Source: Candidatus Acidiferrales bacterium (GTDB lineage: Bacteria > Bacteroidota > Ignavibacteria > Kryptoniales > JAKASW01). Taken from it: a stretch of DNA of 64,000 bases. Shown here in pieces: positions 20,017 to 41,773 of the stretch. The stretch covers positions 1 to 64,000 of the forward strand of contig DATJAY010000020.1 of assembly GCA_035515795.1 (NCBI GenBank). The letters are read 5' to 3'. How positions within the stretch are numbered: position 1 is the stretch's first letter; the number at the start of each line of letters is the position of its first letter. The notes below the pieces were generated by a model, which saw nothing but the letters and a program-made list of their open reading frames with translations, ran no database searches and was not told the DNA's origin. A program made the position numbers and the translations under genes.

Positions 20017-21410
20017 TGCCAAACAAAATACTGATAGTCGATGACGACGAGCTACTCAATAATTCCCTGAATGCAGTTCTCACGAGAAGCGGATATGAAG
20101 TCCTCTCCGTTCTCAAGGGCGAAGAAGCCATCCAGCAAATTTCCGACTTCCAGCCGGATATTGTTCTTCTTGACCTTTATTTAGGCTCGATAACCGGGCT
20201 CGATATACTTCAAAGACTTCGCTCCGATAACAACAGCACGCCGGTAATTCTTATTACGGCGTTTTCGGATGTCAACAGTGCGGTACGTGCCATAAAGCTT
20301 GGTGCTGAAGATTTTGTCCTCAAGCCTCTCGATCTGGAACAGCTTGAGATTCTCATCAATAAGACTTTAAACCGGAAAAATCTCGAGCGGCGTTATGAGC
20401 TTCTCAAAGATGAGATGCAGCAGAAGTTCGGGCCGTACGCGATCGTCGGCAAAAGCGATAACCTTCGGAAGGTCGTCTACACCGCGGAAAGGCTTGCCCG
20501 CGCCGACACGACTGTATTGATAGTCGGCGAAAGCGGTTCGGGCAAGGAACTTGTCGCACGCTTGATCCATGAAAAGAGCGATCTGTCCGACGGCCCGTTT
20601 ATTTCAATCAACTGCGGCGCAATCCCCAAGGAACTTGCCGAGAGCGAGCTCTTCGGTTATGAGAAGGGCGCGTTCACCGGCGCGATGGATAAAATGAGAC
20701 AGGGGAAATTCGAGCTTGCCAATCGCGGCACGATTCTTCTTGATGAAGTCGGAGAGCTGACGCAGGAACTGCAGGTTAAGCTTCTGCGTGTCCTGGAAAC
20801 AAAAAGATTTTACAGGCTGGGCGGGGCGAAAGAAATTTCGGTGGATGTGCGGATAATTGCCGCCACAAATAAGAATTTGAAAACTGCCGTCGAAAAAGGT
20901 GCATTCCGCGAAGACCTTTTCTACCGGCTCAACATCGCCCAAGTTCATGTCCCGCCGCTTCGTGAGAGAACAGAAGACATTGCGCTTCTCGCGAATACAT
21001 TTCTTGATGAGTTCAATAAAAAATTCGGGAAGTCCATAAAAGGTTTCACGCCGGACGCGATCAAGGTCCTTGAAAAATACCCGTGGCCGGGAAATGTGCG
21101 TGAGCTTAAGAACGCCGTTGAACGAGTTGCGCTGCTCGAAACGGATACGGTAATAAAACGCGAGCACCTCGCCTTTCTCAGCATGCATCCAGGTTTCAAC
21201 TCCTCGAAGATAATGGACAACAAAGAGATTGTTTCGGTCCCCAGCCATGGCATTAGAATGGACGATATAATGAAAGAGGCTATCTTGCAGACGTTGGATC
21301 TCACAGGGGGAAATCAAATCCAGGCCGCAAAAATCCTGGGACTGACAAGATCGCGTTTGCGATACCGAATGCAGCAGCTCAAAATCAAGTACGAACCAAG
21401 GAAGAATTAG
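20016..21410 (+). CDS. NtrC-family sigma-54 response regulator
   Basis: 464 residues with a GTG start inside the previous stop (TAGTG). The receiver has Asp53 (DIVLLDLYLGS). The AAA+ domain has Walker A GESGSGKE, a canonical sigma-54 loop EKGAFTGAMD, Walker B GTILLDEVGE and an NVRELKNAVER segment. The Fis-type HTH at the C-terminus is AAKILGLTRSRLRYRMQQL. It should activate sigma-54 promoters on phosphorylation by the upstream kinase. Its targets are unknown. Confidence 0.92.
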   Translation: MPNKILIVDDDELLNNSLNAVLTRSGYEVLSVLKGEEAIQQISDFQPDIVLLDLYLGSITGLDILQRLRSDNNSTPVILITAFSDVNSAVRAIKLGAEDFVLKPLDLEQLEILINKTLNRKNLERRYELLKDEMQQKFGPYAIVGKSDNLRKVVYTAERLARADTTVLIVGESGSGKELVARLIHEKSDLSDGPFISINCGAIPKELAESELFGYEKGAFTGAMDKMRQGKFELANRGTILLDEVGELTQELQVKLLRVLETKRFYRLGGAKEISVDVRIIAATNKNLKTAVEKGAFREDLFYRLNIAQVHVPPLRERTEDIALLANTFLDEFNKKFGKSIKGFTPDAIKVLEKYPWPGNVRELKNAVERVALLETDTVIKREHLAFLSMHPGFNSSKIMDNKEIVSVPSHGIRMDDIMKEAILQTLDLTGGNQIQAAKILGLTRSRLRYRMQQLKIKYEPRKN

Positions 21411-26406: not shown

Positions 26407-27690
26407 GTGACCATTTTGCGAATCTCGGAAGGTTTACGGAGAGTTATGAGACTCCGGCAGAGGAGTAAAAGGGAAGCCCCACCGCTGCTCACTCCCGAGG
26501 AATTTCTGAGGTCGATCACGCTTATCCCGGATATTGATCAACTCCTCGGCAATTTCACCTCGAAGTTCACAGAGATGTTTGCTGCTGATTCGGTTTATTT
26601 GGTTCTGTTGGAGCCGGTTACCAGTCGCTATGTCGGTAGGAAGGCAAAAGGCGACGGCAACGGACTGCTGCCAAGATTCAATTTTTCTCAGAAGGATAAC
26701 CTTATCAAGTGGCTGAATATAAACCGGTGTTCCCTTAATGTGGCACGCCAGGATCAAGTCGTTGGATTTTTGGATAAGGTGGAAAGACAACTTCTGCTTG
26801 ATGCGTCGATTCAGATTATCCTTCCGCTGATCGTTATAAATCGTTTGACAGGAGCTCTGTTTGTGGGAAAGGATTACAGCAGAAGGAGGTACTCGCCGGA
26901 AGAAGAGGGGCTGATGTCAAGTCTGGTATCGCAAAGCGCCCTGGCGATCGAGTATGCCATGATATATCAGTTTCAGGAGGATAAACTGAAGAGACTGTTT
27001 CATGCGGACAAGCTCGTGACAGTCGGCGAACTCGCTGCCGGAGCAGCCCACGAAATACGGAACCCTCTTGCCGCCATCAGAAGCACCGTTCAGTACATCA
27101 GGAAAGATCTATCGATCGATAAGCAAACTCTGGTAGATGGAATCATTGGAGAAGTGGACCGGATCGACAAAATAATCCAGGGGTTGCTTTCATTCAGCAG
27201 GACATCAGAGATACATGTTGATTCGATAGATTTGCATGCCGTATTGGAACAGACACTTTCCCTGTTGGATTCTGAATTGAAGAATCATAATATTGAAATA
27301 ATCAAGGAGTATCGTCTGAGCGATCCATGTATACGCGGAGATGGTGAACAGTTGAAGCAAGTGTTTCTGAATATTTTTCTTAACAGTGTACAGGCCATCG
27401 AGAGGGACGGGAAGATCACTGTAACCACGGCGGTTGCTTCAAATCGTACCGATTTCGTGACGATCTTGTTTTCCGACACGGGGCCAGGCATACCGGCTTC
27501 AGTGTTGTCGAGAGTCTTTGACCCGTTCTACACGACGAAAGAAAATGGCACGGGGATCGGCCTGTCTATTTCATACGGAATAGTCAGCAGGCATGGCGGC
27601 GAAATCGAGATCAGGAGCACCCGGCAAGGAGAAGATAGAGGGACCAATGTGACGATTAATCTTCCCAGAAATTTGACGGACCATCAATGA
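26407..27690 (+). CDS. GAF-domain sensor histidine kinase
   Basis: 427 residues from a GTG at 26407; an ATG at 26446 is an alternative. A GAF domain spans ~40-185, ending in SSLVSQSALAIEYAMIYQF. The HisKA has His215 (GAAHEIRNPLAAIR). The ATPase domain has FLNIFLNSVQAI, DTGPGIP and GTGIGLSISYGIV. There is no membrane segment, so it senses an intracellular or redox/gas signal. ATGA overlaps with the regulator downstream, forming a two-component pair next to the RiPP-like cluster. Confidence 0.9.
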   Translation: MTILRISEGLRRVMRLRQRSKREAPPLLTPEEFLRSITLIPDIDQLLGNFTSKFTEMFAADSVYLVLLEPVTSRYVGRKAKGDGNGLLPRFNFSQKDNLIKWLNINRCSLNVARQDQVVGFLDKVERQLLLDASIQIILPLIVINRLTGALFVGKDYSRRRYSPEEEGLMSSLVSQSALAIEYAMIYQFQEDKLKRLFHADKLVTVGELAAGAAHEIRNPLAAIRSTVQYIRKDLSIDKQTLVDGIIGEVDRIDKIIQGLLSFSRTSEIHVDSIDLHAVLEQTLSLLDSELKNHNIEIIKEYRLSDPCIRGDGEQLKQVFLNIFLNSVQAIERDGKITVTTAVASNRTDFVTILFSDTGPGIPASVLSRVFDPFYTTKENGTGIGLSISYGIVSRHGGEIEIRSTRQGEDRGTNVTINLPRNLTDHQ

Positions 27691-29081
27691 ATAATCCAAT
27701 CGATAAAAGAGTTCTCATCGTGGACGATGAAGAACGCATCCGCAACATATTGGCCGCAATATTGAAAGATGAAAACTATGAAGTTGCGACTGCGAACGAT
27801 GGCACCGAGGCTCTAAACAAAATGGCCGATTTCATGCCTCATGTAGCGATAGTCGATCTCCAGATGCCCCGCATGAACGGTCTGGAGACTATCTCGCAGA
27901 TGATGCAAATCGACAGCCATATCGTCCCCATAATCCTGACGGCTCACGGCACAATCCAATCGGCAGTACGGGCGACCAAGCATGGTGTCTATGACTACTT
28001 GACGAAACCATTCGACAATGAGCAGATGCTTCTGGTTGTCAAGCGCGCTTTGGAGCATTATCAACTTGCCGCAGAAATTACGGAACTCAGGAAGGAACTC
28101 AGCAAGCGGCATGGACTCGACTCGATTGTCGGCAATAGTCTCATGATGCAGAAGGTGCGGGAAGAAATCAAACGCATTGCGGAAACCGATGCCGTCATAT
28201 TGATAGAGGGAGAAAGCGGAACCGGCAAAGAGTTGGCCGCACATGCGATCCACTATGAAAGTGCTAGAAAAAATGGCCCGATGGTAATCGTGGATTGCGG
28301 CTCAATACCGATGAGCATAATTGAGAGCGAGTTCTTCGGGCACGAGAAAGGTGCCTTCACAGACGCCCGGGAGCAGAGGATAGGGAAGTTCGAGGAGGCG
28401 GACACAGGGACGATTTTTCTCGACGAGATTAGTGAACTCGCGATGGATGCGCAGACGAAGTTGCTTCGGTTTCTGCAGGAGAAGGAATTCGCCCGCGTTG
28501 GGGGTGGAAACGCCGTAAAGGTTGACGTGCGGGTGATTGCGGCAACCAATAGAAATCTTGAGGATCTGTTGAAGGCAGGTAGATTCCGCGAGGATTTATA
28601 TTACAGGTTGAATGTCCTGAGACTTAGAATTCCTTCTTTGCGTGAGCACAAAGAAGATATCCCCCTCTATGCGGCTCACTTCATAGAGAAGCACAAACAG
28701 ACCGTCAATCGGGGGGAATGCGAAATATCATCGGACGCAATTCAGGTTCTGATGTCGCATGACTGGGGCGGTAATGTTCGGGAGCTCGAAAACGCTATCC
28801 AGCGCGCCATGCTCAGCATGAGCGGCCGTCGGATTGAAGCAGCCGATTTGATGTTTCTAGCAAGACAGAGTTCTTCAAACTCTAAACAATATGATGGCGA
28901 GGAAAGTCTTGAGAGCTATATCAAATCTCTTGTCGAGTACACGGAGAGAGAAATCATTATCAAGGCTCTTGAGGAGAGTAAATGGAGCAGAACGGAAGCT
29001 GCGAAAAAACTGAAGCTGGACCGTAGGACCCTTTTCAACAAGATGAGACAATACTGCATCGAGGAAAAGTCCGAAAACTAA
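27687..29081 (+). CDS. NtrC-family sigma-54 response regulator (GAFTDA variant)
   Basis: 464 residues, overlapping the kinase by 4 bases. The receiver Asp57 is in VAIVDLQMPRMNG. AAA+: Walker A GESGTGKE, sigma-54 loop EKGAFTDAREQ (GAFTDA in place of GAFTGA), Walker B GTIFLDEISE. The C-terminal HTH is AAKKLKLDRRTLFNKMRQY. Its position just upstream of a sigma-54 promoter and half-site array (29205-29310) makes it a candidate regulator of the cluster, alongside the receiver-less activator at 29566. Confidence 0.9.
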   Translation: MNNPIDKRVLIVDDEERIRNILAAILKDENYEVATANDGTEALNKMADFMPHVAIVDLQMPRMNGLETISQMMQIDSHIVPIILTAHGTIQSAVRATKHGVYDYLTKPFDNEQMLLVVKRALEHYQLAAEITELRKELSKRHGLDSIVGNSLMMQKVREEIKRIAETDAVILIEGESGTGKELAAHAIHYESARKNGPMVIVDCGSIPMSIIESEFFGHEKGAFTDAREQRIGKFEEADTGTIFLDEISELAMDAQTKLLRFLQEKEFARVGGGNAVKVDVRVIAATNRNLEDLLKAGRFREDLYYRLNVLRLRIPSLREHKEDIPLYAAHFIEKHKQTVNRGECEISSDAIQVLMSHDWGGNVRELENAIQRAMLSMSGRRIEAADLMFLARQSSSNSKQYDGEESLESYIKSLVEYTEREIIIKALEESKWSRTEAAKKLKLDRRTLFNKMRQYCIEEKSEN

Positions 29082-29204
29082 TAACGGCGGAGATGGAGAG
29101 CCGTTATAACTCTGATCCAGAGGTCCAAATGAATTGTTACCATCAATGATGTCTGGTGGAGAGGAGAGTATGTTCCTAATATTTGGCCATCATTTATGTC
29201 CCGG

Positions 29205-29246
29205 TGGGAATCTTCTTACCCACGTATATGGGCATTACATTTCCCA
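29205..29246. promoter_or_regulatory. Enhancer-like array of four alternating half-sites, upstream of the activator gene
   Basis: TGGGAA (29205), TACCCA (29217), TGGGCA (29229) and TTCCCA (29241) alternate in orientation with exactly 12 bp between starts, forming two inverted repeats TGGGNA-N6-TNCCCA in tandem. The array ends 48 bp before a sigma-54 -24 element. A second array with the same geometry is at 34730-34771. This is the expected layout of an upstream activator site for a sigma-54 activator dimer pair. Confidence 0.75.
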
Positions 29247-29294
29247 CGTGATGATGATGATCTCCGGATTTCGATGTTCTGACTGCAAAAAGTG

Positions 29295-29310
29295 TGGCAC
29301 TCCGCTTGCA
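29295..29310 (+). promoter_or_regulatory. Sigma-54 (-24/-12) promoter of the activator gene
   Basis: TGGCACTCCGCTTGCA matches the consensus TGGCACG-N4-TTGCW with GG and GC in correct spacing. Transcription would start near 29322, leaving a leader of ~240 bases before the ATG at 29566. It lies 48 bp downstream of the half-site array, consistent with autoregulation. The leader holds no ORF that I would defend. Confidence 0.75.
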
Positions 29311-29565
29311 CCAATAACAGGTTGGCTTCTGGAATGAGCGTTAGGTTTTTGGGAACCACCGTTTCAAATCCCAAACCAAACTCAGATATGCTAAAGTTCG
29401 CAGTGAATGTATGAACGAATGATTCGGATACCAGTTTCGTGCAAACTTACTGGACAGAACCGGGAAGGCACCGAAGTTAATGGAGAGCAAGACGGTGTTG
29501 GTGTTCGATCATCCCTGAAAGTGAACTAGAATTCAAAATTCAAAAAATTATTATGGATTAATCAA

Positions 29566-30501
29566 ATGGAAAGAGAGCCTAAGGAAGTAGTATTCGGCAG
29601 CCAGGAGATGACAGTAATAATGTCGCAGGCTGAAAGGGTCGCGCGTAATGAATTTTCAGTTCTCATAACCGGCGAGAGCGGAGTAGGGAAAGAGGTTGTG
29701 TCGCGTTATATTCATCAGCACAGCGCTCGTGCTGCGGAACCGTTTGTCGCGGTAAACTGTGGTGCAATTCCTGAGACCCTTTTTGAAGCCGAGCTTTTCG
29801 GCTTCGAGCGGGGTGCCTTTACGAATGCGTTCTCACCGCACAGGGGATACTTCGAGCAGGCAAACCATGGCACTATTTTGCTTGATGAGATCTCGGAACT
29901 TCCCCTGACATTGCAGGTTAAACTCCTCCGTGTGCTGGAAGACAAATACATCATGCGAATTGGCGGCGAGAAGGAGATTCAGGTGGACGCACGGGTGATA
30001 GCTGCGTGTAATATGAACCTTCAGACGCTGGTGAGAGAGCGGAAATTCCGAAAGGATCTGTATTATCGTCTGGCGGTCTCCGTCATAGCTATTCCACCTC
30101 TTCGTGCGCGTAAAGACGATATCGAAACTTTGGCTGGTAGCTTCCTGCGTAAATATTCGCCTGCCAGGAAAATTCTAAACCGCGAAGCACTTATGAAACT
30201 CACCCATTATGAATGGCCTGGAAACGTGCGTGAGTTAGAGTATTGTATCATTCGCTCCATCCTAAACAGCGATGGTAAAGAAGTTATCAGGGCCGACGAC
30301 ATTCAGTTCCTGGAGGATGATATCGAACGCAGCGCCGCGATAGAGCGAGGAGCGTTTGAGGAAGCATTGAGAAAAGCTAGAGGAAATGTGAACAGTGTTT
30401 CCCGGCTGTTAGGAGTACATAGGAACACCGTTTACAACAAAATTAAAAGATTCAATATTGATCTGTTGCGATACAGGAACGGCCATCCGGTTTTTCAATA
30501 G
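29566..30501 (+). CDS. Receiver-less sigma-54 activator (AAA+ and HTH only)
   Basis: 311 residues that start almost directly with the AAA+ domain: Walker A GESGVGKE (36-43), the sigma-54 loop ERGAFTNAFS (GAFTNA at 83-88), Walker B ILLDEISE (~104-111) and R-finger region FRKDLYYRLAV. The Fis-type HTH at ~275-300 is SVSRLLGVHRNTVYNKIKR. There is no N-terminal receiver or sensor domain, so activity is probably set by expression level, by a partner protein as with PspF, or by the neighbouring two-component system. It lies downstream of its own sigma-54 promoter and is convergent with the maturase gene. It is the leading candidate to bind the TGGGNA/TNCCCA arrays. Confidence 0.85.
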   Translation: MEREPKEVVFGSQEMTVIMSQAERVARNEFSVLITGESGVGKEVVSRYIHQHSARAAEPFVAVNCGAIPETLFEAELFGFERGAFTNAFSPHRGYFEQANHGTILLDEISELPLTLQVKLLRVLEDKYIMRIGGEKEIQVDARVIAACNMNLQTLVRERKFRKDLYYRLAVSVIAIPPLRARKDDIETLAGSFLRKYSPARKILNREALMKLTHYEWPGNVRELEYCIIRSILNSDGKEVIRADDIQFLEDDIERSAAIERGAFEEALRKARGNVNSVSRLLGVHRNTVYNKIKRFNIDLLRYRNGHPVFQ

Positions 30502-30550
30502 ACGCGGAATTTTTAAGAAAGCGTCAGGGGACCTCATCCTTTGCCAACTC

Positions 30551-30571
30551 CCGGCACTCGTCGGGTGCCGG
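30551..30571. terminator. Possible bidirectional terminator between convergent genes
   Basis: Perfect 7-bp stem CCGGCAC/GTGCCGG with a 7-base loop between the activator stop (30501) and the maturase stop (30778). No T-run follows on either side, so termination activity is uncertain. Confidence 0.3.
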
Positions 30572-30777
30572 TCAAGAAATAATCTTCGTTGTTTGATTCA
30601 CGTGGGAAGAAAGTGCGATTCATTTTCCTATGAATGGAAGATAAGAACGCTCTATTGAATGTCAGGCAAAATGAACCATTGTGAAGTATTGTTTCTCCCT
30701 GAGAAACCATTCTTTTCTCTTCTGGATTCGGTATTTCGATTGTCATTTTGTTACAATAATCCTTTCTACTGATTTTT

Positions 30778-32331
30778 TTAAATTGTGCGAGCATCAGACA
30801 AGGTGTAATCGTTTTCTTTTTTGATGTCTTTTCGTTTTTCCTCATAAGCTTTTGCAGCCTGTTCCATTTTATTAAATGGAATCTGCGTATCTGCCCAGAG
30901 GCTGTCTATGGCAGATTTTTTCAAGAGAGGGCACATGTCTTTATGATAGGCCTTGATGTCTCCATACATGTTGTAGGCAGCCCCGCGGCAACCGCCTGCA
31001 CATACGTATTTGACAAAACATTTGCCGCATTGCTTGATTGAATCGACCGTTGTCTCCCGGCATTTCTTCATCACTGCCGACTCTCGATATATCTTTCTTA
31101 TATCCTCTTCAAGAATGTTCCCTGCCCTAAACTCTTTTTTGTACATCATGGTACACGGGTATATGTCGCCGTTCGACACCATGTGGATATCCCCGTTTGC
31201 AGCACCGCACTGATTTTTCCTCGGAGCGTGCTTGACGATGAGTCCGTTGTGCTCATCGACAGCAAGAGGAGGGAATTCGTCACCGCTCAGTTCGAGCCTG
31301 AGGCTGGCAGCGACGAGAAATTTATTGTATTCATCGTCGAATATGACAGGGTTGATAGGATTATTGTTTTTGTCCCTGACGACTTCTTTTGACGGAAGAA
31401 AAGCACCCATTCTATGCTGGCCGACACCGATTTCCTCAACGAGCAACCTATGAGTTTCGGGCATACTCTTGACATTGACGTTGCAGACGACCGAATTTAT
31501 CACGAGCCGCTTCGGATTGTAATTCGCCAGCAATCTGACGGCACGCATGGTCCGGTCAAACGATCCTTTACCCCTCAGTGCTTCATGCTCTTCTTTTATA
31601 TGGCTGTCCAGGCTCACCCACACCAGGTCGAATAATTCTGCAACAGCAGGAGCCAGGTTTTCTGTTATACGTGTACCATTTGTCACCAGCGCGATACGGA
31701 ATCCCCTGTTCTTGGCGTAACGGGCCACATCAAACAAGTCCGGCCGCATCATAGGTTCGCCGCCGCAAAAGGCAACCGCTGACGCACCAAAATCCCAAAG
31801 CTTTTCCAGCGCCTGAACCGTTTCGGCCGTTGTCATTTCTTCCCTGAATTTTCCAAAACGTTTTCTGTTCTCCGCATTGTAGCAGTAAACGCATGAGAGA
31901 TTGCAGCGCTCGGTGTTTGAAAAGTATACGTTAACTGGGTGTCCACCCTCCGGTGAATCAACAAACTCGCGGGTTACATAGGCATCGAGATGGATGATTC
32001 CAGCATCGATCATGCTCCGAATGAAGTCGGCGACCTTCTCTCTGATGCTGTCGGCACTTTGCCTGTAATGCGCGCATAGGCGGTTGATTGCCTCATCGAG
32101 GTCGGGAGATGTTTCCAGTGTTTCAATTATTTGCTTCCCGGAGTCGTTTAGGCGGATCCAGACATGGTTATCTGGATCGAAAAAGAGGTGCCAACCTTCT
32201 TCATTTGCGAGATGAACCAGTTTGGGTGGAAGGAGGAGTTTCGCCTTGATGAGATCAGATTCGGCCAAGGACCTTCCTTTTGCAATAGTTTTGCTCCCGG
32301 GATCTACTTTATCCGGTGTGCCAATTTCCAT
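30778..32331 (-). CDS. Radical SAM/SPASM peptide maturase with PqqD-like leader-binding domain
   Basis: 517 residues. Residues ~30-118 form a PqqD-like fold (WHLFFDPDNHVWIRLNDSGK, SIREKVADFIRSMIDAGII), the RiPP recognition element that binds leader peptides. The radical-SAM motif CNLSCVYC holds Cys143, Cys147 and Cys150, followed by AFCGGEPMMRPD. The C-terminus is a SPASM domain (IYPCTMMYK, CGKCFVKYVCAGGCRGAAYN, DMCPLL) for auxiliary Fe-S clusters. The precursor peptide gene lies 112 bases upstream on the same strand. The predicted reaction is a radical crosslink or thioether on the Cys-rich core; the exact chemistry is unknown. Confidence 0.88.
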   Translation of the reverse strand: MEIGTPDKVDPGSKTIAKGRSLAESDLIKAKLLLPPKLVHLANEEGWHLFFDPDNHVWIRLNDSGKQIIETLETSPDLDEAINRLCAHYRQSADSIREKVADFIRSMIDAGIIHLDAYVTREFVDSPEGGHPVNVYFSNTERCNLSCVYCYNAENRKRFGKFREEMTTAETVQALEKLWDFGASAVAFCGGEPMMRPDLFDVARYAKNRGFRIALVTNGTRITENLAPAVAELFDLVWVSLDSHIKEEHEALRGKGSFDRTMRAVRLLANYNPKRLVINSVVCNVNVKSMPETHRLLVEEIGVGQHRMGAFLPSKEVVRDKNNNPINPVIFDDEYNKFLVAASLRLELSGDEFPPLAVDEHNGLIVKHAPRKNQCGAANGDIHMVSNGDIYPCTMMYKKEFRAGNILEEDIRKIYRESAVMKKCRETTVDSIKQCGKCFVKYVCAGGCRGAAYNMYGDIKAYHKDMCPLLKKSAIDSLWADTQIPFNKMEQAAKAYEEKRKDIKKENDYTLSDARTI

Positions 32332-32363
32332 TGAGAAATTCCGTCCTTTTTATTCTTGACTAG

Positions 32364-32413
32364 TTGGATCGACGGGGCACCTGAACGTCGGTAATGCCCC
32401 GTCTATGATCCAA
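32364..32413 (-). promoter_or_regulatory. Long hairpin between precursor and maturase genes
   Basis: TTGGATC+GACGGGGCA pairs with TGCCCCGTC-TAT-GATCCAA: 16 base pairs interrupted by a 3-base bulge, with a 15-base loop. In the direction of transcription it follows the precursor stop and precedes the maturase. No T-run follows, so it more likely attenuates read-through or protects the upstream mRNA end, giving more precursor than enzyme. Confidence 0.7.
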
Positions 32414-32443
32414 ATGCAATTTGATTTTTTTAAGCCATTGTTT

Positions 32444-32572
32444 TCATTTAGGGGGTTCGAAATTTATGGCTATCGTAACGGGGTAAGAGCAAAAACAACT
32501 ACAGCTATCTGGTTGTAATGCTGCTTGCGCCTCTAACGATGAAAGACTCGCGAATCCCAGTGGGTTGAACAT
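32444..32572 (-). CDS. Candidate RiPP precursor peptide, 42 residues
   Basis: The ATG at 32572 has the ideal ribosome-binding site AAGGAGGT with a 9-base spacer. The peptide begins MFNPLGFASLSSLEAQAALQ, a Cys-free helical leader. It continues with PD, then SCSCFCSYP (Cys24, Cys26, Cys28), a hydrophobic VTIAINF segment and a final EPPK. It sits between an ABC exporter and a PqqD-radical SAM/SPASM maturase on the same strand, exactly where a modified-peptide precursor is expected. The three alternating Cys are the likely modification sites. I know of no named family with this core. There is no GG-type leader cleavage site. Confidence 0.8.
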   Translation of the reverse strand: MFNPLGFASLSSLEAQAALQPDSCSCFCSYPVTIAINFEPPK

Positions 32573-32640
32573 GATGTTTTTACCTCCTTCGGTTTTTGTA
32601 GTTTGTTTGAGTGAGTTGAGACAAAAGTGTTTGCATGTAA

Positions 32641-34476
32641 CTATATTTCAATCGTAATCATTTTTTGTCCATTGTTGCTCTGGTTCACCGTCATCTTGGA
32701 AATGCGTACTCCGTCAGGGAGACCCGATAGACTTCTTTCTTCTTTGCCGGCAAAAAGCTGTTCATCGTAGAGCCGTCGATATGTTCGGTTGCCCAGGTAC
32801 AGCTCCTGATGTGACCCGATAGCCGCGACCTTGCCTCCGTCAAGAACGATGATCTTGTCGGCCGATAAGACGGTCGAAAACCTATGAGCAATTATAAATG
32901 TCGTGCGACCCCTCATCAAATTTGCGAGGGCTTCTTTGACCAAATTTTCAGATTTTGAATCTAGTGAGGACGTTGCCTCATCGAGGATCAGTATCCTCGG
33001 ATTTTTTAAAATGGCTCTTGCAATTGCAATTCTCTGTTTTTCTCCCCCCGACAACTTCATCCCTCTCTCTCCAACCTGAGTTTGGTATCCGTTCGGAAAT
33101 CCGACTATGAATTCGTGTGCGTTAGCTCCCTTGGCAGCTTCAACTATTTCCGCTTCAGTTGCGGTCAGATCTCCATATCTTATGTTTTCGAAAATGGTCG
33201 TGCTGAATAGGAATGTATCCTGGAGGACGATGCCGAATTGGGATAAGAGGCTTTCTCTTTTTATTCGCCTTATGTCTTGCCCGTCGATTAGTATCTCACC
33301 ATCATAAGAGTCATAGAAACGAGCAAGCAAATTGAGAAGAGTGCTTTTCCCCGCACCGCTCTCTCCGACTAAGGCAACCATGTTACCGGCCTGCACATCG
33401 AGATTAACGTCCCGCAGCACCGAATGATTGGGTTCGTAAGCGAACGAGACGTTTCTGAATTCGACATCGCCACGAAGTTTCACACCTGGTATTTCAAAGT
33501 GCCCTTGTTCCGGTGAATCATTATTGTTCATCAACTCAAGAATTCTTTCGGCCGACGCGAGAGAGGTTTGAACGCTCATGTTTGTTCCCATAAGGTTTCT
33601 TATCGGTCCAAAAATATTCACCGTATACGCCGAGAATGCCATCAGCTGACCAAGAGTGAGTGTCCCTGTGATTACTTGGTAGCTGCCAAACCAAAGGATA
33701 AGGACACCGGCAAACGTTGTACACAACAGAACGGTTGTCGCACTCAGCGCTGTAAGTATGCCCAACTTTATGTTCAGGTTGCGGTTTTCGTCGATGCTTC
33801 TTTGAACTTTATCAGCCCGAAACTTCTGCAAGCCGAACGCTTTGATGAGCCGGATGCCCGCGAAACTTTCCTGAATGTCTCCACACACTCGTGATCGCTC
33901 TTCCTGAACTTTGCGAGAGACGTCTCTCACATATTTGTTGAACCAATTGACCCCGAATGCAAAAGCCGGCACAACAGAGATAGCTATCAGAGTTAACTTC
34001 CAGTTCATGATGGATACTATCGAAATTGTTCCCGCGGCGACGAGCAAATTTATTAGTGCACTTATGATTGTCTCGCCGACAAGTGTGCCCGCGGCTGTCG
34101 TGTCCGCAAGTATCCGGCCTGCAAGGTAACCGGTCCCCCTTTCGTCAAATATCGATACCGGAAGATCTTGAACGTTCTCGTATAATTTCCTTTGCATGCA
34201 CCGGACTACATCTTCGCGGAAGGTAATCAGTAGTTTTCCCTTGACAAAATCGACGAAAGACCGCATGAAGTACAAACCGATAAATGCTAGCCCAAACTTT
34301 GCAAGAAGTATCGGATCCTTTCGCGGTATGATATTGTCGATGAGGATCAAGAGGACTAATGGAGCAGCCAGATCTGCAGATGCGCTGATCATTGTCAGCA
34401 TGCCTGCAACTACATATTTTTTCAGGTGCGGCTTTGCAAAGGGGAACAGACCCTTTGCTACCGCAATAGTGTGCAT
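32641..34476 (-). CDS. ABC exporter (fused membrane and ATPase domains), probable peptide exporter
   Basis: 611 residues. Six membrane segments lie in the first ~310 residues. The nucleotide-binding domain follows with Walker A GESGAGKSTLL, Q-loop FGIVLQDTFLF, signature KLSGGEKQRIAIARA, Walker B RILILDEATSSLD and H-loop IIAHRFSTV. There is no N-terminal C39 peptidase, so it does not cleave leaders itself. A 36-residue polar tail follows the usual end. It is first in the predicted operon exporter-precursor-maturase, 68 bases before the precursor ATG, downstream of a sigma-54 promoter at 34567-34581. Confidence 0.9.
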   Translation of the reverse strand: MHTIAVAKGLFPFAKPHLKKYVVAGMLTMISASADLAAPLVLLILIDNIIPRKDPILLAKFGLAFIGLYFMRSFVDFVKGKLLITFREDVVRCMQRKLYENVQDLPVSIFDERGTGYLAGRILADTTAAGTLVGETIISALINLLVAAGTISIVSIMNWKLTLIAISVVPAFAFGVNWFNKYVRDVSRKVQEERSRVCGDIQESFAGIRLIKAFGLQKFRADKVQRSIDENRNLNIKLGILTALSATTVLLCTTFAGVLILWFGSYQVITGTLTLGQLMAFSAYTVNIFGPIRNLMGTNMSVQTSLASAERILELMNNNDSPEQGHFEIPGVKLRGDVEFRNVSFAYEPNHSVLRDVNLDVQAGNMVALVGESGAGKSTLLNLLARFYDSYDGEILIDGQDIRRIKRESLLSQFGIVLQDTFLFSTTIFENIRYGDLTATEAEIVEAAKGANAHEFIVGFPNGYQTQVGERGMKLSGGEKQRIAIARAILKNPRILILDEATSSLDSKSENLVKEALANLMRGRTTFIIAHRFSTVLSADKIIVLDGGKVAAIGSHQELYLGNRTYRRLYDEQLFAGKEERSLSGLPDGVRISKMTVNQSNNGQKMITIEI

Positions 34477-34510
34477 ATCTGCAAACCTCGCAATCTTTTG
34501 ATCGAAAAGA

Positions 34511-34538
34511 GGGGGACGTTCTAGGGACCTCGTCCCCC
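34511..34538 (-). promoter_or_regulatory. Hairpin in the 5' leader of the exporter mRNA
   Basis: GGGGGACG pairs perfectly with CGTCCCCC around a 12-base loop, between the predicted sigma-54 start point (~34556) and the ATG at 34476. It may protect or regulate the transcript; there is no direct evidence. Confidence 0.35.
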
Positions 34539-34566
34539 ATGGCTAAACGTATTCTTTGGTATATTC

Positions 34567-34581
34567 GCAATCGGCGTGCCT
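34567..34581 (-). promoter_or_regulatory. Sigma-54 promoter of the exporter-precursor-maturase operon
   Basis: On the minus strand the sequence reads AGGCACGCCGATTGC, matching TGGCACG-N4-TTGC at every conserved position except the first T. The predicted start is near 34556, 80 bases before the exporter ATG. It shares the half-site array at 34730-34771, about 150 bp upstream, with the divergent promoter. Confidence 0.7.
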
Positions 34582-34729
34582 TATTAAAGTCTCATAGAAT
34601 ATCATGTTTTTGCGGAATCGAGGAGTGATTTGCAATCCTTCTGTGCACTGGGGTTGTGCAGCCGCGACAACTGATAGCGATGCGGATGCTTACTTGCACA
34701 CAGATTGTTTGTGCATGTCCAATAAGATT

Positions 34730-34771
34730 TGGGCAATTGCGTTCCCATACAGGTGGGAATCTCCTTTCCCA
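34730..34771. promoter_or_regulatory. Second enhancer-like array of four alternating half-sites, in the divergent intergenic region
   Basis: TGGGCA (34730), TTCCCA (34742), TGGGAA (34754) and TTCCCA (34766): again four half-sites of alternating orientation at exactly 12-bp pitch, as at 29205-29246. The array ends 49 bp before the plus-strand -24 element, nearly the same distance as at the activator gene. The same activator should therefore control the activator gene, the RiPP operon and the ABC-2 operon. Confidence 0.75.
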
Positions 34772-34820
34772 TTGTGGTTTCGTGTCTTTAAGAAATGCAC
34801 GGAAACTCATTGTTAAGAAT

Positions 34821-34836
34821 GGCATGGGGATTGTCC
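34821..34836 (+). promoter_or_regulatory. Sigma-54 promoter of the ABC-2 transporter operon
   Basis: TGGCATGGGGATTGTC fits TGGCAYG-N4-TTGY; the -12 GC is GT here, so it may be weaker. The start point would be near 34847, giving a short leader before the ABC-2 permease. Confidence 0.6.
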
Positions 34837-34891
34837 AATACATACTGTCATAGAAATCTTATTGGCTAAACGTAAACAAGGTCTAAATCCC

Positions 34892-36337
34892 ATGCTGTTG
34901 ACAATCGTCATCAGGGAAATCTTCGAAAGTATTTACAGCTATCGTTTCCTTTTCTTCCTGATTATCAGCGCCACTCTCATCCCGATCGGGCTTTATGTTA
35001 ACGAGGTGAGCTACTCCAAGCGGCTGGGTGAGTATGACGAACAGAAACGATTGGAAAACAAAGCCTTGTCTTCTTCTCAGAAGTGGGATCTCATGTCCGG
35101 GACTGTTCCTCTAAAAGGTTTTCTAGAGCCATCACCACTCGCTGTCTTTGCTCAAGGACTAGAAGGCTCTCTACCACAATCCTATACGTTCAAGCCAGGC
35201 GGGTACGAGAAGGGAGCAGTTCCCTCGGGCAAAGGATCGATCCCATCCGAATTAGGAGAGTTGAATTTTGCCTTCATGGTTCAACTGGTCGTGAGCCTTA
35301 TAGTTCTGATATTCGGTGCAGATGTCGTGTCAGGCGAAAAAGAATTGGGAACACTGCGAAGCGTGTTATCAAACAGCGTTCCGCGTGATACGGTCTTGTT
35401 CGGCAAGCTCATTGGGGGCTATGCGGCCATCTGGTTCCCCTTTGCTCTTGCACTTGTGGCAGGGATTCTGGTCTTAAGCTTCACCCCTTTTCCACTTTAT
35501 GATAAAGAAATTCTGGTAAGGGTCTTGTTGATCTTCGCGGCCTCGTCAGGATTTATTCTTATTTACTTTTTAATTGGGATAATGATCTCTTCCTGTACAG
35601 CCAGAACCCGCACTTCTCTGATTGCGATTGTCGTAGTGTGGACATTTCTGCAATTGATTGTTCCTAAGGTCAGCAACATAGTGGTAGCACTCGCCTATCC
35701 CATTAAGACCGAGACGGTTGTATCTGTTGAGAAATCACTCGCCATGAACACCCTTGAAAATGAGAAGTCCAAGGTATTGGGAAAACAATATCAGGAGATT
35801 TTCGGAGTGGACACGGCTTCTGCTTCCGGCAATGAACCGTCGGCTAGAGAGCTTCAATGGAGATCATTCAAGGATGAAATTGTACAGACCTATGAAAAAA
35901 AAGAGACTGAAGATATTCGTTTCATCGATCAGGATTATGAACGAGAGAAAGCTATCCAGCAACGCATTGAAACAGGGATTTCATTGATTTCCCCGAGCGC
36001 CGCTTTTGACTATATAATGACGGACTTATGCAGCACTGGAATCTCTGACAAGGAGAAATACGTCGAAGCAGTTAAAACATATCAGAACACACTAGATCGG
36101 GAATTGTTTGATCTTGTTGAGCGTACGACCCTCACGTTCCCGAGCGGACGCACAGCTGCTTTCATGTCAATCGGGAATGTCCAGGATATGAAATCTCTGC
36201 CGAGTTTTTCTGTGCCGCGGGCCGGTCTCTCAGAAATTTTCAGAAACAACATGGGAAGTCTCACGTCCCTCACCCTCTGGCTGATTGTTCCGCTGGCCGT
36301 AGCCTACAAAAGGTTTTTGAAATATGATGTACGATAA
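34892..36337 (+). CDS. ABC-2 type transporter permease
   Basis: 481 residues from the ATG at 34892 (MLLTIVIREIFESIYSYRFL), with AAGG upstream; a TTG at 34862 would add 10 residues. There is one N-terminal membrane segment (FLFFLIISATLIPIGLYV), a long soluble loop, a group of about four segments around residues 130-275 (FADMV-type GADVVSGEKELGTLRSVLS follows the first), a second large soluble region and a last segment near the C-terminus. This is the DUF3526-like architecture of ABC-2 permeases. The 3' end overlaps the ATPase gene by 14 bases. Proposed role: efflux or self-protection linked to the peptide cluster (inference). Confidence 0.8.
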   Translation: MLLTIVIREIFESIYSYRFLFFLIISATLIPIGLYVNEVSYSKRLGEYDEQKRLENKALSSSQKWDLMSGTVPLKGFLEPSPLAVFAQGLEGSLPQSYTFKPGGYEKGAVPSGKGSIPSELGELNFAFMVQLVVSLIVLIFGADVVSGEKELGTLRSVLSNSVPRDTVLFGKLIGGYAAIWFPFALALVAGILVLSFTPFPLYDKEILVRVLLIFAASSGFILIYFLIGIMISSCTARTRTSLIAIVVVWTFLQLIVPKVSNIVVALAYPIKTETVVSVEKSLAMNTLENEKSKVLGKQYQEIFGVDTASASGNEPSARELQWRSFKDEIVQTYEKKETEDIRFIDQDYEREKAIQQRIETGISLISPSAAFDYIMTDLCSTGISDKEKYVEAVKTYQNTLDRELFDLVERTTLTFPSGRTAAFMSIGNVQDMKSLPSFSVPRAGLSEIFRNNMGSLTSLTLWLIVPLAVAYKRFLKYDVR

Positions 36338-37118
36338 GGAAAAAATAATTGATGAAGCGACCAAGGGGCAGATTGATTCCCGATTCGAGGAATTACGTGA
36401 TCGATCCATGATTCAGGCAGTTGACCTGACCAAGCGATATGAAGATGGCCTCCTTGCTCTCGACCACTTGAACATAGATATCAAACCGGGGCAAATCTAC
36501 TGCCTCCTTGGTGCCAACGGAGCGGGGAAAACAACAGTGATCAACCTCTTCTTCAATTTCATCGAGCCTACGAGCGGAAGCGCGAGGATAAACGGCTACG
36601 ATTGTGCCAGAGAGCCTCTTAAAACGAAAAAGTATGCCGCCTACATCCCGGAAAATGTGATGCTGTATGGCAACTTCAGTGCCCGGCAGAATCTTGATTT
36701 TTTTGCGAGACTCACGGGAAGGGATGAATTGAAGAAGGAGGATTACCACATGGTGATGAGGCAGGTCGGGCTTCCAGAATCATCGTTTGAAAAGCGTGTC
36801 AAGACATTTTCCAAAGGGATGCGCCAGAAGCTAGGGATCGCGATAGCAATTCTAAAACAAGCGGCGGCATTAATCCTCGACGAACCAACATCGGGCCTCG
36901 ATCCTAAAGCCGCAGCCGATTTCGTCGAGCAGCTGTTCAAATTGAGAAACGAAGGCAGGGCGATACTAATGTCAACGCATGACATTTTCAGGGCAAAGGA
37001 GATAGCTGACGTCGTAGGAATAATGAAAGAGGGCGTTCTTATCACTGAGAAAACGAAGGAAGATATAGATAGAGAAGATCTCGAAAAATCGTACCTCAGA
37101 TATATGGGGGTCGATTGA
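36324..37118 (+). CDS. ABC-2 transporter ATP-binding protein
   Basis: 264 residues. Walker A LLGANGAGKTTVIN, signature TFSKGMRQKLGIAIA, Walker B ALILDEPTSGLDPKA and H-loop MSTHDIFRA are all intact. The ~28-residue N-terminal extension is polar. It overlaps the permease gene and pairs with it as the motor of an ABC-2 transporter. Co-regulation with the RiPP operon is predicted from the shared half-site array. Confidence 0.9.
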   Translation: MMYDKEKIIDEATKGQIDSRFEELRDRSMIQAVDLTKRYEDGLLALDHLNIDIKPGQIYCLLGANGAGKTTVINLFFNFIEPTSGSARINGYDCAREPLKTKKYAAYIPENVMLYGNFSARQNLDFFARLTGRDELKKEDYHMVMRQVGLPESSFEKRVKTFSKGMRQKLGIAIAILKQAAALILDEPTSGLDPKAAADFVEQLFKLRNEGRAILMSTHDIFRAKEIADVVGIMKEGVLITEKTKEDIDREDLEKSYLRYMGVD

Positions 37119-37256
37119 AATACCGTTCAGTCCATAAGTCATCCTTTTCATGGTCGGGATCATGCGTCTTGATTCCGATGCCAGAATCTGGGTGCCACAG
37201 ATTTGAGGATGAAGCCATTAACCCGAGACTTTCAAAGAAATGGAGAGTGGAGTCAG

Positions 37257-38735
37257 ATGTATAGGGCCATCATTATTTTATTTCTTGTACTTCTGCGGTC
37301 AGGGTTGTCCCAGATGTTATACAATCCTAACGATGAGAGATTTAAATCTCTGTACCTGGAAAAAGTACAGAGTGATTACAGACTTCAGAAAGAGACCTAC
37401 GACCGCCAGAGGATTCTTTTTGACAAGGGACTAATTTCCAAGCAGGAGTTTGAGCAATCGGAGGCGGCGTTTAAGACAGCACAGGTTACTTATCAACAGG
37501 CAGTCCTTTCTGTCGCGTTCGAACAGCCGCACATAACGATTGACAAAGCCGTCAAGCACCAGTCCCGGAATGGTAAAACTTGGGTAAAACTTACTCTCAG
37601 GAATACCACCGGTGGCATTGTGTCGGGCAATGACAGCACGTTTGAGGGTATGGATAATCTTCGCACCGACCGGATCGCTAACGTCTATGTTTCTCTGCTG
37701 AATGACGAACACGCTGTCGTCAGTCAGCCATATGAAGCGAAGATCCCTGTGATGAAGTATAACGAGCCGGTTACAGTCGACTTCGTGCTGCTGCAGGATC
37801 TGGACTATGTCACCGTAAAGGAAGTTCGAGGCGATAAGTCTGAGGAACGAAAGATACTTCTTCAAATGGATGAAAGTGCGAACCGCGTCCTCATCACTCT
37901 CGATCAGTTTTCTCAGGAGGTGGACCTTGGATCCGATGCAACATTTGGATTGACCCTCGCTTTGTTTTCCGATCGAAGCTATGCGTACAGACTTGGAGTA
38001 GTGAATCTGCCCAGGCAAATCAGCTGCGATTTCTTTGACACGCAGGCTGGAGGAGGGAGAAATGCCAGGGTCTCACAGGTAAAATTTTGCCAGGACGCAA
38101 GCACACGACAGGTCTCCCTTGCCGCATATTTACCCGATAGATATGACAGCACTTCATTTACAGTTGATAAGCCGATTGATTTCTTCGCGGTCGCAATCCC
38201 GGAGGGCCCGGGGGCAGAGGATTTTGATCAGACAAGAATGTATGCCGCGTCAGATCTCGATAAGCTCCATATAAGTTACGCTCGATTAGAAATTGTTCCG
38301 CGCGGGACCGGAAAAATCTCTGTCCGAACGACCAACTATTATCAGGAAATAAAACCCGGTGACAGAGTAAACATGACTTTGACGGTGCATAATGATGGCA
38401 CGCGAACCCTTGACAACGTAAGAACCCGGACAGATCTCCCTGCCGAATGGATGGCGACGATCTCCCCAGATTTGATTGAATCCCTCTCGCCGGGAAAAGA
38501 TCAGACTGTGTCAGTAACACTTATCCCACCTGCGAGGTTGGCGATAGGAGATTACGAAGCGACTATGAAGACCATTGGATTTGCAGGCAACAAGCAGATT
38601 GACGGGGAAAACAAAAGCATCCGGATTCATGTCAGCCCAAGCGGAAACGTTTTGGAAACCGCAATGCCTCTTATGTTGATCCTTGGGATTCTGGTAGGCG
38701 TTGTCACATTCGGAATACGAATGAGCAGAAGATGA
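37257..38735 (+). CDS. NEW3-domain membrane-anchored protein with MFP-like helical segment
   Basis: 492 residues from the ATG at 37257, behind GTGGAGTCAG; an in-frame start at 37203 is also possible. A signal peptide (IIILFLVLLRSGLSQ) leads into a helical segment DYRLQKETYDRQRILFDKG-LISKQEFEQSEAAFKTAQV, which resembles the hairpin of membrane-fusion proteins. Beta-rich domains follow; the last (~370-470, YQEIKPGDRVNMTLTVHNDG) is a NEW3-type domain. A C-terminal membrane anchor (LMLILGILVGVVTFGI) ends in RMSRR. It is periplasmic and probably works with the ABC-2 pair encoded upstream. Confidence 0.65.
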   Translation: MYRAIIILFLVLLRSGLSQMLYNPNDERFKSLYLEKVQSDYRLQKETYDRQRILFDKGLISKQEFEQSEAAFKTAQVTYQQAVLSVAFEQPHITIDKAVKHQSRNGKTWVKLTLRNTTGGIVSGNDSTFEGMDNLRTDRIANVYVSLLNDEHAVVSQPYEAKIPVMKYNEPVTVDFVLLQDLDYVTVKEVRGDKSEERKILLQMDESANRVLITLDQFSQEVDLGSDATFGLTLALFSDRSYAYRLGVVNLPRQISCDFFDTQAGGGRNARVSQVKFCQDASTRQVSLAAYLPDRYDSTSFTVDKPIDFFAVAIPEGPGAEDFDQTRMYAASDLDKLHISYARLEIVPRGTGKISVRTTNYYQEIKPGDRVNMTLTVHNDGTRTLDNVRTRTDLPAEWMATISPDLIESLSPGKDQTVSVTLIPPARLAIGDYEATMKTIGFAGNKQIDGENKSIRIHVSPSGNVLETAMPLMLILGILVGVVTFGIRMSRR

Positions 38736-38821
38736 GGAGTGATTTGGAATGGCGTTCGTCCCGATAGCATGTTTGACAATTGCAAACCTGTGGGCATGAG
38801 ATGGAAATTTCGGAGGTCATG

Positions 38822-41431
38822 ATGTCATATTTAACTAACAATCAGCATAACGCACTTGGTGATAACGGTATCCATGGAGCCTTTTTTGAAGACCACCCGT
38901 TGCCAATGTGGATACAGGATATTGATTCTCTCAGGATCATAGGAGTGAATCGGGCCGCAATGAACAAATATGGATATTCCCGTGAAGAATTCTTGGAAAA
39001 AACAATTGACGATATTCGGCTGTCAAAGGAAATGGAGCGCATTAACACAGACCTGCGGCCGGGTATTGTATATCCCAATATCCAACAGCATCGATTGAAA
39101 AGTGGTGAGATGATTGCGGTGGAAACCACTTCGCGTGTACTGGATTACGACGGACACAGCGCGGTGTTCACGATAATACACGATCTCGCCGATCAGAAAC
39201 GTGTGGAGGACGATCTAAATGAAGAGGCGAACCGCGACCTTATCGAAGCTATGCCCATCGGTTACTATAGATGCACGCAGAATAGATTTGTAGAAGTAAA
39301 TCCGGCGTTTGCAAGAATGTTGTGTTACAGCCGTGAAGAGTTGCTGGCCATTGATATCCCTGAAGGGCTTTATTTTAATCCCGCCAAGCTGGATTTGCAG
39401 GTGATGGATCGCGGCTTCCGCTCTAAACCGGAAATATGTCAACTCAGAAAAAAAGATGGGACCGAAATATACATCAACGACTTTTCCAGGTACGTCCAGG
39501 ATCCGGAAGGTGAAATCATTTATCGCGAAGGGATGTGCCGACAAATCTCGGATCACGAAGCTAAGACACCTTTGGAGGTCAATGCAATCGTCGATCAATT
39601 ACCGGTTGCCGTTGTCGTTCACACTGATTTGAAATTGGTTTACATGAATGCTGCGGCACTGAAATTGGCCGGCGCGCGTTCCTTTGGCCAGCTCCAGGGA
39701 AGATCGATGATGGAATTCGTCCATTCGGACTTCCAGTCAGTCATGATGGATCATATTAGCAACATATCGGTCGGCGAGCAAAAAGTCCAAATATCGGAGA
39801 TCGGGTTCGTCCGGGTCGATGGTTCGATGACGCTGGTTCAAATAACGAGTAATCCCATAACATATTTCGGCAGGCCTTCGATTCAGTCGACCATTCAGGA
39901 TATTGGTGAACGAAGGAAGATCGAGGAAACTCTGAGTCTTCAAAACACTGCCCTCAGCGCAATCGACAACGCAATCGTGATTACCGATCAGAGAGGAAAA
40001 GTAGAATGGGTAAATCCTGCTTTTGAAAAACTCACAGGTTACTCTCCATCTCAGGCTGGGGGCGCGGAGATAGGTAAGCTTGTAAAATCAGGGAAGCAGG
40101 ATAAGGAATTCTACAAAGACATGTGGGACACCATCCTGTCCGGAAAGACATGGCGCGGACAGCTTGTCAATCGGCGCAACGATGGTACGATTTACGATGA
40201 GGGCATGACCATAACGCCAGTCTTAAACGATGAAGGAAAAATTACTCACTTTGTTGCGACAAAGGAAGACGTCAGCGAGAGAAAATATCTCGAAGATGAA
40301 CTCACTCAGGCACAGAAGCTGGATATGGTTGGAAGGCTTGCCGGCGGTGTCGCCCATGACTACAACAACGTCCTGGGCGTGATCCTCGGCTATGGTGAGC
40401 TCATTAAGAGCAAGCTTCGCGATGAAGAGTCTATAAGACGTCAGCTCGATGCTATTATTGCGGCGGCGAAGAGGGGATCCGCTCTGACAAAGCAGCTCCT
40501 TTCCTTTGCGCGAAAGGATGTGATATCCCCTAAGATTATCAGCATCAACACGTCGATCGAGTCCATCAAAGAAATGTTGCAGCAGATCATCGGCGAGAAT
40601 CGTGAGCTGGCTCTCCATTTAGAAAACAATCTATGGAACATAAGAATAGATCCCACTCAACTCGACCAGATACTCGTGAACCTTGCAACGAACGCTAGGG
40701 ATGCAATCGCGGACGTGGGGACGATAACCATCGAAACGTCGAACATGTTTGTGGATGAAGCATTTGTTCGAGAACATCCCGAATTTTTGCCGGGCGAGTA
40801 CGTGAGGGTCTCGTTCTCAGACACGGGGAAAGGGATCGATAGGGACACTTTGAAAAGGATATTCGAGCCGTTCTTTACGACGAAGTCCGAGGGGAAAGGG
40901 CTGGGGCTTGCAATGGTCCACACGATAGTCAAACAGAACAGCAGCCATGTCGAGGTACAAAGCGAGCCGGGCATCGGAACAAAATTCGATATTTATTTTC
41001 CCCGCTCCAATGGAGAACCGGAGAAGGCAAAAGAGCAATCTCCGAGCGAATCGCCGAGAGGGGACGCAACCGTTCTCGTCGTGGAGGACAGGCCCGATCT
41101 GTTGGAGCTTGCGAAGAGAGGCTTGGAGCAATACGGATACAAAGTATTGACCGCATTGAATCCCAGAGAAGCCTTGTCGGTGTGCAGAGAGTTTTCAGGA
41201 GACATTGATTTGCTCCTCGCCGATGTCGTCATGCCGGGCATGAACGGCGGCGAGCTGAGTCGCAGAATTAGAGACATGAAGCCGGGGATAAGGACGCTCT
41301 TCATGTCCGGATACAGCGCAGACGTGATAGCGCCGCAGGACGCGGCAGGAAAAAGGATAGCATTCATCCAGAAGCCATTCACTCCGCAGGCTCTTGCTAA
41401 AAAGCTCCAGGAAGTCCTCCGCACAATCTGA
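38822..41431 (+). CDS. Multi-PAS hybrid sensor histidine kinase with C-terminal receiver
   Basis: 869 residues. The ATG at 38822 is preferred (GGAGGTC just upstream); ATGs at 38819 and 38801 are possible. Four PAS/PAC repeats occupy the first ~500 residues (GVNRAAMNKYGYSREEF, EVNPAFARMLCYSREELL, YMNAAALKLAGARSF, WVNPAFEKLTGYSPSQ). The HisKA has GGVAHDYNNVLGVILGYGEL (His in AHDYNN). The ATPase has DTGKGIDRDT and EGKGLGLAMVHTIV. A C-terminal receiver has LLLADVVMPGMNGG. There is no membrane segment. It is a cytosolic sensor and could feed one of the sigma-54 regulators. Confidence 0.88.
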   Translation: MSYLTNNQHNALGDNGIHGAFFEDHPLPMWIQDIDSLRIIGVNRAAMNKYGYSREEFLEKTIDDIRLSKEMERINTDLRPGIVYPNIQQHRLKSGEMIAVETTSRVLDYDGHSAVFTIIHDLADQKRVEDDLNEEANRDLIEAMPIGYYRCTQNRFVEVNPAFARMLCYSREELLAIDIPEGLYFNPAKLDLQVMDRGFRSKPEICQLRKKDGTEIYINDFSRYVQDPEGEIIYREGMCRQISDHEAKTPLEVNAIVDQLPVAVVVHTDLKLVYMNAAALKLAGARSFGQLQGRSMMEFVHSDFQSVMMDHISNISVGEQKVQISEIGFVRVDGSMTLVQITSNPITYFGRPSIQSTIQDIGERRKIEETLSLQNTALSAIDNAIVITDQRGKVEWVNPAFEKLTGYSPSQAGGAEIGKLVKSGKQDKEFYKDMWDTILSGKTWRGQLVNRRNDGTIYDEGMTITPVLNDEGKITHFVATKEDVSERKYLEDELTQAQKLDMVGRLAGGVAHDYNNVLGVILGYGELIKSKLRDEESIRRQLDAIIAAAKRGSALTKQLLSFARKDVISPKIISINTSIESIKEMLQQIIGENRELALHLENNLWNIRIDPTQLDQILVNLATNARDAIADVGTITIETSNMFVDEAFVREHPEFLPGEYVRVSFSDTGKGIDRDTLKRIFEPFFTTKSEGKGLGLAMVHTIVKQNSSHVEVQSEPGIGTKFDIYFPRSNGEPEKAKEQSPSESPRGDATVLVVEDRPDLLELAKRGLEQYGYKVLTALNPREALSVCREFSGDIDLLLADVVMPGMNGGELSRRIRDMKPGIRTLFMSGYSADVIAPQDAAGKRIAFIQKPFTPQALAKKLQEVLRTI

Positions 41432-41584: not shown

Positions 41585-41773
41585 ATGCAAAAGAAAAAAC
41601 AGGCGATAGTGATTGCACCACTACCGCCCAGAAAAATTGATAAACAAGCATGTTCTCAGAATCGCGCAGTCGTATTAAGAAAATACGACGCGACAATATT
41701 GTTTATCAACGCGCATTCTAAAAAGAATTACAGACAAATTCAACAACAAAGGATTGAAAGGAAACTGCAGTGA
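41585..41773 (+). CDS. Small basic protein translationally coupled to the papain-like protease
   Basis: 62 residues starting MQKKKQAIVIAPLPPRKIDK. A good ribosome-binding site (AAAGGAGGAGA) precedes the ATG. The stop overlaps the GTG start of the protease by 4 bases (GTGA), indicating coupling. It is rich in K, R and Q, with one Cys near residue 23 and no signal peptide. I do not recognise it. It could be a regulatory leader, a chaperone or inhibitor of the protease, or a second peptide precursor; none is established. Confidence 0.45.
   Translation: MQKKKQAIVIAPLPPRKIDKQACSQNRAVVLRKYDATILFINAHSKKNYRQIQQQRIERKLQ

Follow-up and report, generated by a model that had tools for sequence, protein, structure and literature searches.

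A probable Cys-rich precursor peptide of a radical-SAM RiPP, and its conserved gene block in an Ignavibacteria genus

The question raised by this locus is whether a 42-codon reading frame between an ABC exporter gene and a radical SAM gene encodes a precursor peptide, and what would be made from it. The analysis was performed on a contig stretch of 64,000 nucleotides (the window; source genome G000) and on the corresponding locus (L006) of a second species of the same genus (G012). The reading frame is very probably the precursor gene of a radical-SAM RiPP, because the neighbouring gene encodes an enzyme of the PqqD/RRE-radical SAM-SPASM type, the cluster motifs of which are complete. A new natural product very likely derives from the encoded peptide, because the second species keeps the peptide at the same place beside the maturase and the pump. 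A probability of about 0.7 was given to the whole model, in which the leader would be read by the RRE, thioether rings would be formed by the maturase, and the product would be exported, with protection by a pump and control by sigma-54.

The precursor gene and its counterpart in a second species

The genes and signals at the centre of the locus were located in the window as follows.

30778..32331 (-), maturase, 517 aa, with N-terminal PqqD/RRE, radical SAM core and seven-Cys SPASM (Pfam)
32444..32572 (-), precursor peptide gene, 42 aa, with a homologue in the second species
32573..32591 (-), ribosome-binding site and spacer of the precursor gene
32641..34476 (-), MsbA-type ABC exporter, 611 aa, without peptidase domain (ABC_membrane and ABC_tran above cut-off)

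A sequence-only reading had described here a 42-residue ORF with a Shine-Dalgarno sequence, Cys24, Cys26 and Cys28 (C-x-C-x-C) and the C-terminus EPPK, located on the same strand as, and between, an ABC exporter gene and a PqqD-radical SAM/SPASM gene; both the ORF and its site were confirmed. The frame runs from ATG to stop (42 codons, translated as MFNPLGFASLSSLEAQAALQPDSCSCFCSYPVTIAINFEPPK) within the gap of 309 nt between the exporter and maturase genes, the order being exporter, precursor and maturase, all on the minus strand. The Shine-Dalgarno sequence AAGGAGGT lies 9 nt upstream of the ATG and is present in the second species as well. Six short ORFs (25-85 aa) of the window carry AGGAGG at start-codon distance, and among these C-x-C-x-C occurs solely in the precursor. 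The gene is shorter than most gene finders accept, and no family was matched by the peptide in Pfam or NCBIfam. We infer a leader of about residues 1-22, in which a double-glycine site is absent, and a Cys core of about residues 23-42; the latter consists of CxCxC (with an additional Cys in the second species), the conserved S-x-P-V-T and then a hydrophobic strand.

The counterpart in the second species, MFNPLGFASLSTLEANMTTNPGCNCTCVCSVPVTVTIFIATN, is also of 42 residues and was found at L006 9354-9482 (-) between the orthologous exporter and maturase genes. The two peptides are approximately 58% identical (BLASTP E=1e-15 in a single comparison). Within the leader, 14 of the first 15 residues are identical and residues 16 to 23 are mostly different, and within the core the three Cys, S29, P31, V32 and T33 are kept. 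Where an RRE recognises the leader, that leader usually hardly changes while the core next to it varies. The occurrence of such a leader and a variable Cys core, together with an adjoining RRE-fused maturase and an exporter, in a second species supports the reading as a RiPP precursor.

Conservation beside the orthologous maturase, and third-position-independent drift or frameshifts, had been named as the tests of this reading. A small ORF with the leader and the three Cys kept was found there, and neither drift of that kind nor any frameshift was seen in 41 aligned codons, the 45 mismatches falling at codon positions 1, 2 and 3 as 13, 7 and 25, respectively (binomial p=0.0018). Different codons are used for 14 of the 24 identical residues, and dN and dS by NG86 were approximately 0.34 and 1.85 (near saturation), respectively, corresponding to a dN/dS of approximately 0.18. 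Since the divergence is third-position-biased, whereas the DNA 3' of the precursor up to the maturase is merely 33% identical, the precursor is, by this comparison, a real coding gene under purifying selection; two precursors are known and conservation therefore rests on one pairwise comparison.

The maturase and the probable chemistry

PqqD, Radical_SAM and SPASM were matched in Pfam by residues 51-113 (6e-10), 140-296 (3e-24) and 375-438 (8e-7) of the maturase, respectively. Complete motifs are present for radical SAM (CNLSCVYC) and for SPASM (C375-x12-G-x4-C393, C435-x2-C438-x5-C444-x3-C448, C467), with all of these Cys invariant in the orthologue of the second species, which is 57% identical. 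The Cys layout is as would be expected for two auxiliary iron-sulphur clusters. The top NCBIfam model was StsB (NF045574), aligned near full length with 211 bits for the window and 204 bits for the second species, the second-best models giving 143 and 137 bits, respectively; both StsB scores are far below the curated cut-off (625 bits), so the exact chemistry is unreadable from this match. Every NCBIfam cut-off listed was above the score of the maturase, including those of the SCIFF model TIGR03974 (100.5 of 425 bits), the PqqE model (93.5 of 381 bits) and the mycofactocin model MftC (134 of 265 bits); the AlbA model gave 84 of 850 bits. The top PDB match was 5wgg (E=6e-26, the alignment spanning radical SAM and SPASM with the SPASM Cys), which we take to be CteB, a thioether-forming SCIFF maturase. 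The structure of CteB has been described (PMC8326336). By these comparisons, the maturase resembles thioether-forming peptide maturases and lies outside any curated family tested. Its two-sequence AlphaFold model (mean pLDDT 37) was too poor for a fold search.

In the proposed mechanism, the conserved N-terminal stretch MFNPLGFASLSxLEA would be read by the PqqD/RRE domain, and the radical SAM and SPASM domains would connect Cys24, Cys26 and Cys28 (in the second species, four Cys) through their thiols to carbons of the backbone or side chains in the strand that follows the conserved Ser-x-Pro turn (V-T-I/V-A/T-I...). The product would be a hairpin turned at S-x-P with nested thioether rings, in which alternating donors face alternating acceptors. 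The chemistry would most likely be thioether bridging between the alternating Cys and the strand that follows the conserved Pro. Between the two precursors, V32, T33, I36 and F38 are the only invariant candidate acceptors; alpha-, beta- and gamma-linkages cannot be distinguished by sequence. In its fullest version, the model has one enzyme building three or four nested thioethers as a ladder across a beta-hairpin, together with a pump for immunity and sigma-54 control of the cluster's own; this version is less likely than not. To our knowledge, a nested-ladder topology is not known from described sactipeptides or ranthipeptides, and the ring topology could be new.

SPASM enzymes can also make C-C or C-O bonds, and epimerisation is carried out by other radical SAM enzymes. 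A radical-SAM RiPP carrying such another modification, with the Cys forming disulphides or binding metal, is unlikely. It would be compatible with the SPASM similarity of the maturase, which is generic to many families, with an acceptor pattern that is not firmly conserved and with the S, T, Y, N and F residues available in the core; however, conservation within that core is highest at the three alternating Cys, and the top full-length model and the top solved relative are a sactipeptide maturase and a thioether maturase, respectively. It is quite improbable that the Cys cluster serves in metal binding or redox chemistry, or that a small redox cofactor of the PQQ or mycofactocin type is made from the peptide instead of a secreted ring peptide: C-x-C-x-C is usable as a metal-ligand pattern, and the PqqD domain and the similarity to the mycofactocin maturase (134 bits) recall cofactor pathways, but the maturase scored below the mycofactocin and PqqE cut-offs, the block is without a cofactor-pathway partner (dehydrogenase, peptidase or MftB-like protein), an exporter stands in the same gene row, and the core varies and gains a Cys. 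A chance ORF in an intergenic region, as its short length and lack of a database match might suggest, was rejected on the codon-position divergence as having a negligible probability, the ortholog having the frame, Shine-Dalgarno sequence and leader conserved and the divergence being synonymous-biased.

Export, regulation and distribution of the block

The remaining features of the block were located as follows, with identities to the second species in brackets.

26407..29081 (+), sensor histidine kinase and NtrC-type response regulator at the left block end (67% and 69%, respectively)
29295..29309 (+), perfect sigma-54 promoter match TGGCACTCCGCTTGC before the free-standing activator (0 mismatches)
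29566..30501 (+), sigma-54 activator without receiver domain, PF00158 and HTH_8 (73%)
32364..32413 (-), approximate bounds, stable RNA hairpin by folding z in the precursor-maturase gap, stem GACGGGGCA...TGCCCCGTC
34567..34581 (-), sigma-54-type -24/-12 site AGGCACGCCGATTGC by pattern match, one mismatch, approximately 105 nt before the exporter start
34820..34834 (+), weaker sigma-54-like site TGGCATGGGGATTGT by pattern match, before the divergent pump operon
34862..36337 (+), ABC-2 permease, PF12679
36324..37118 (+), ABC ATPase of the ABC-2 pump (73%)
37203..38735 (+), membrane-anchored NEW3-domain protein, PF10633, with weak RND adaptor matches (68%)
38780..41431 (+), PAS-hybrid sensor kinase at the right block end (55%)

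The matured peptide would likely exit by the MsbA-type exporter encoded upstream, which is 62% identical in the second species. A C39 peptidase domain was not found in it by Pfam (ABC_membrane and ABC_tran alone were above cut-off) and no protease gene was seen in the conserved block; therefore, removal of the leader would need a protease encoded elsewhere. The ABC-2 pump is a candidate for self-protection or for second export, and together with the NEW3 protein, the sequence of which is weakly similar to periplasmic adaptors, it would probably protect the producer. We infer an antagonistic or signalling activity of the peptide. A protein of 285 aa with an N-terminal hydrophobic stretch is encoded in the second species at L006 6858-7715 (-), overlapping the end of the maturase gene; it is without a Pfam match and without a counterpart in the window, and could have an immunity or processing role.

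The hairpin gave z=-2.87 in the window, and the corresponding gap of the second species gave z=-4.60 with different stem sequences; no Rfam family was matched at gathering scores. It probably acts in RNA processing or attenuation and so sets the precursor:enzyme ratio, and would hold the precursor level above the enzyme level.

The proposed regulation would involve the kinases and sigma-54 activators, by which both arms would be switched on together. The second species has TGGCACACCTGTTGA, likewise with one mismatch, approximately 99 nt before the orthologous exporter start, TGGCATAGCGATTGC as the counterpart of the site before the divergent pump and CGGCATTGGTCTTGC, with 2 mismatches, before the sigma-54 activator; directly upstream of the precursor there is no sigma-54-like site. 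With at most one mismatch, 9 sites were found in the window versus 3.2 expected, and with two mismatches no overall excess was found at the locus of the second species. Such pattern matches by themselves are weak evidence, and what weight they have lies in the matching positions across the two genomes. Another histidine kinase/NtrC-type regulator pair at 18475-21410 (+) of the window, 30% and 39% identical to the block pair of the second species, is a possible paralogue of the block pair.

The block (26407-41431, 15 kb) is collinear in the second species with genes 55-73% identical, in the order kinase, NtrC-type regulator, sigma-54 activator, maturase, precursor, exporter, ABC-2 permease, ATPase, NEW3 protein and PAS-hybrid kinase. 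A second precursor was not seen in it, the other conserved short ORFs being shadows of conserved genes on other frames. The flanks differ, the second species having a glycosyltransferase-like gene on the left and other secreted-type proteins on the right, and the glutaminyl-tRNA synthetase gene, near the block in the window, is on another contig there; this synthetase is 81-86% identical across the genus, with the second species (83%) no closer than others. In the window, genes of a papain-family protein and a subtilase, each with a type IX secretion sorting domain, lie just right of the block (41770-44583, +) and at 12036-14945 (+), respectively. A SAM-I riboswitch (Rfam RF00162, 62 bits) at 15631-15751 (+) precedes a gene (at 15857) for a PLP enzyme of Cys/Met metabolism, and an alpha-L-fucosidase with PA14 and chitobiase-like C-terminal domains and BshC (bacillithiol synthesis) are encoded at 45197-47227 (+) and 60151-61776 (+), respectively. 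BshC and the type IX sorting domains would point to Bacteroidota and allied lineages.

Among the 13 family genomes searched, which all belong to one genus, the kinase, the permease and the maturase were each found in the same two only (G000 and G012), in different chromosomal settings, as would be expected of a cassette that is acquired or lost as a whole. Beyond these two genomes, no maturase homologue was found at E<=1e-55 in 391 genomes of the class or at E<=1e-35 in 385 genomes of the phylum, and a single-sequence search of 395 phylum genomes (E<=1e-60) returned the same two; the draws overlap and about three candidates were scored per genome, and a diverged relative could therefore be missed. 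On plasmids, the precursor had no match by tblastn and the maturase matched just radical SAM proteins of 26-29% identity, e.g. mycofactocin MftC. In genome contigs, the maturase had two archaeal matches only, restricted to the radical SAM core, and the search of viral contigs gave no match. A precursor profile run on 391 class genomes returned the two orthologs and otherwise weak matches (E 4.5e-4 and worse). The best of these were judged to be chance: in their loci (about 3 kb), none of the matches coincided with a short CxCxC ORF next to a convincing radical SAM gene, and CxxxCxxC occurred in two long ORFs only.

Comparison with known radical-SAM peptides

The claim that the peptide belongs to no named class holds within the libraries searched, in which the precursor was without a Pfam or NCBIfam match and the maturase below the cut-offs. 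Because both are outside curated models, such a cluster can escape gene callers and family libraries. Nothing relevant was found in the literature on C-x-C-x-C radical-SAM RiPPs or on radical-SAM RiPPs of Ignavibacteria. The locus offers two testable precursor-enzyme pairs (three and four Cys) for a Cys-rich radical-SAM peptide outside curated families, and the fourth Cys of the second species is a natural comparison, predicting one extra ring.

As in subtilosin A, thurincin H and ruminococcin C, the Cys lie N-terminal to the candidate acceptor strand, but their spacing (i, i+2, i+4) differs from that of Bacillus sactipeptides. Most sactipeptides are hairpins with donor Cys N-terminal to the acceptors and leaders of 8-29 residues (PMC8326336), and the layout of this precursor, with putative acceptors, would fit that kind. 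RumC2 has a C-x-C donor pair, in which Cys22 and Cys24 are joined to Asn35 and Glu31, respectively (PMC8172795), and may be taken as a partial precedent for the alternating-donor hairpin. Streptosactin has two unnested rings, Cys25-Ser28 and Cys31-Gly34 (PMC8172795). Its system (StsB/GggB, GggA) likewise combines an N-terminal extension with radical SAM and SPASM in an enzyme adjoined by a short precursor; however, its rings are unnested and its regulation is of the Rgg type, whereas here an alternating CxCxC precedes a Pro turn and the regulators are kinases and sigma-54 activators. The SCIFF ranthipeptides (CteA/CteB) share a Cys-rich precursor of similar length, the nearest solved structure (CteB, 5wgg) and a thioether product, presumed in the present case, but have six Cys spread over about 45 residues in contrast to three or four clustered ones. 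Radical-SAM RiPP clusters of Bacteroidales, in which the leaders are of the GG type and the transporters contain a peptidase (PMC10352776), also combine a radical SAM enzyme having RRE/SPASM with an ABC exporter, whereas the present cluster is without a GG motif and a C39 peptidase domain. Within the genomes sampled, the precursor and its cluster are clade-restricted; they are new as a family and ordinary as a kind of radical-SAM RiPP.
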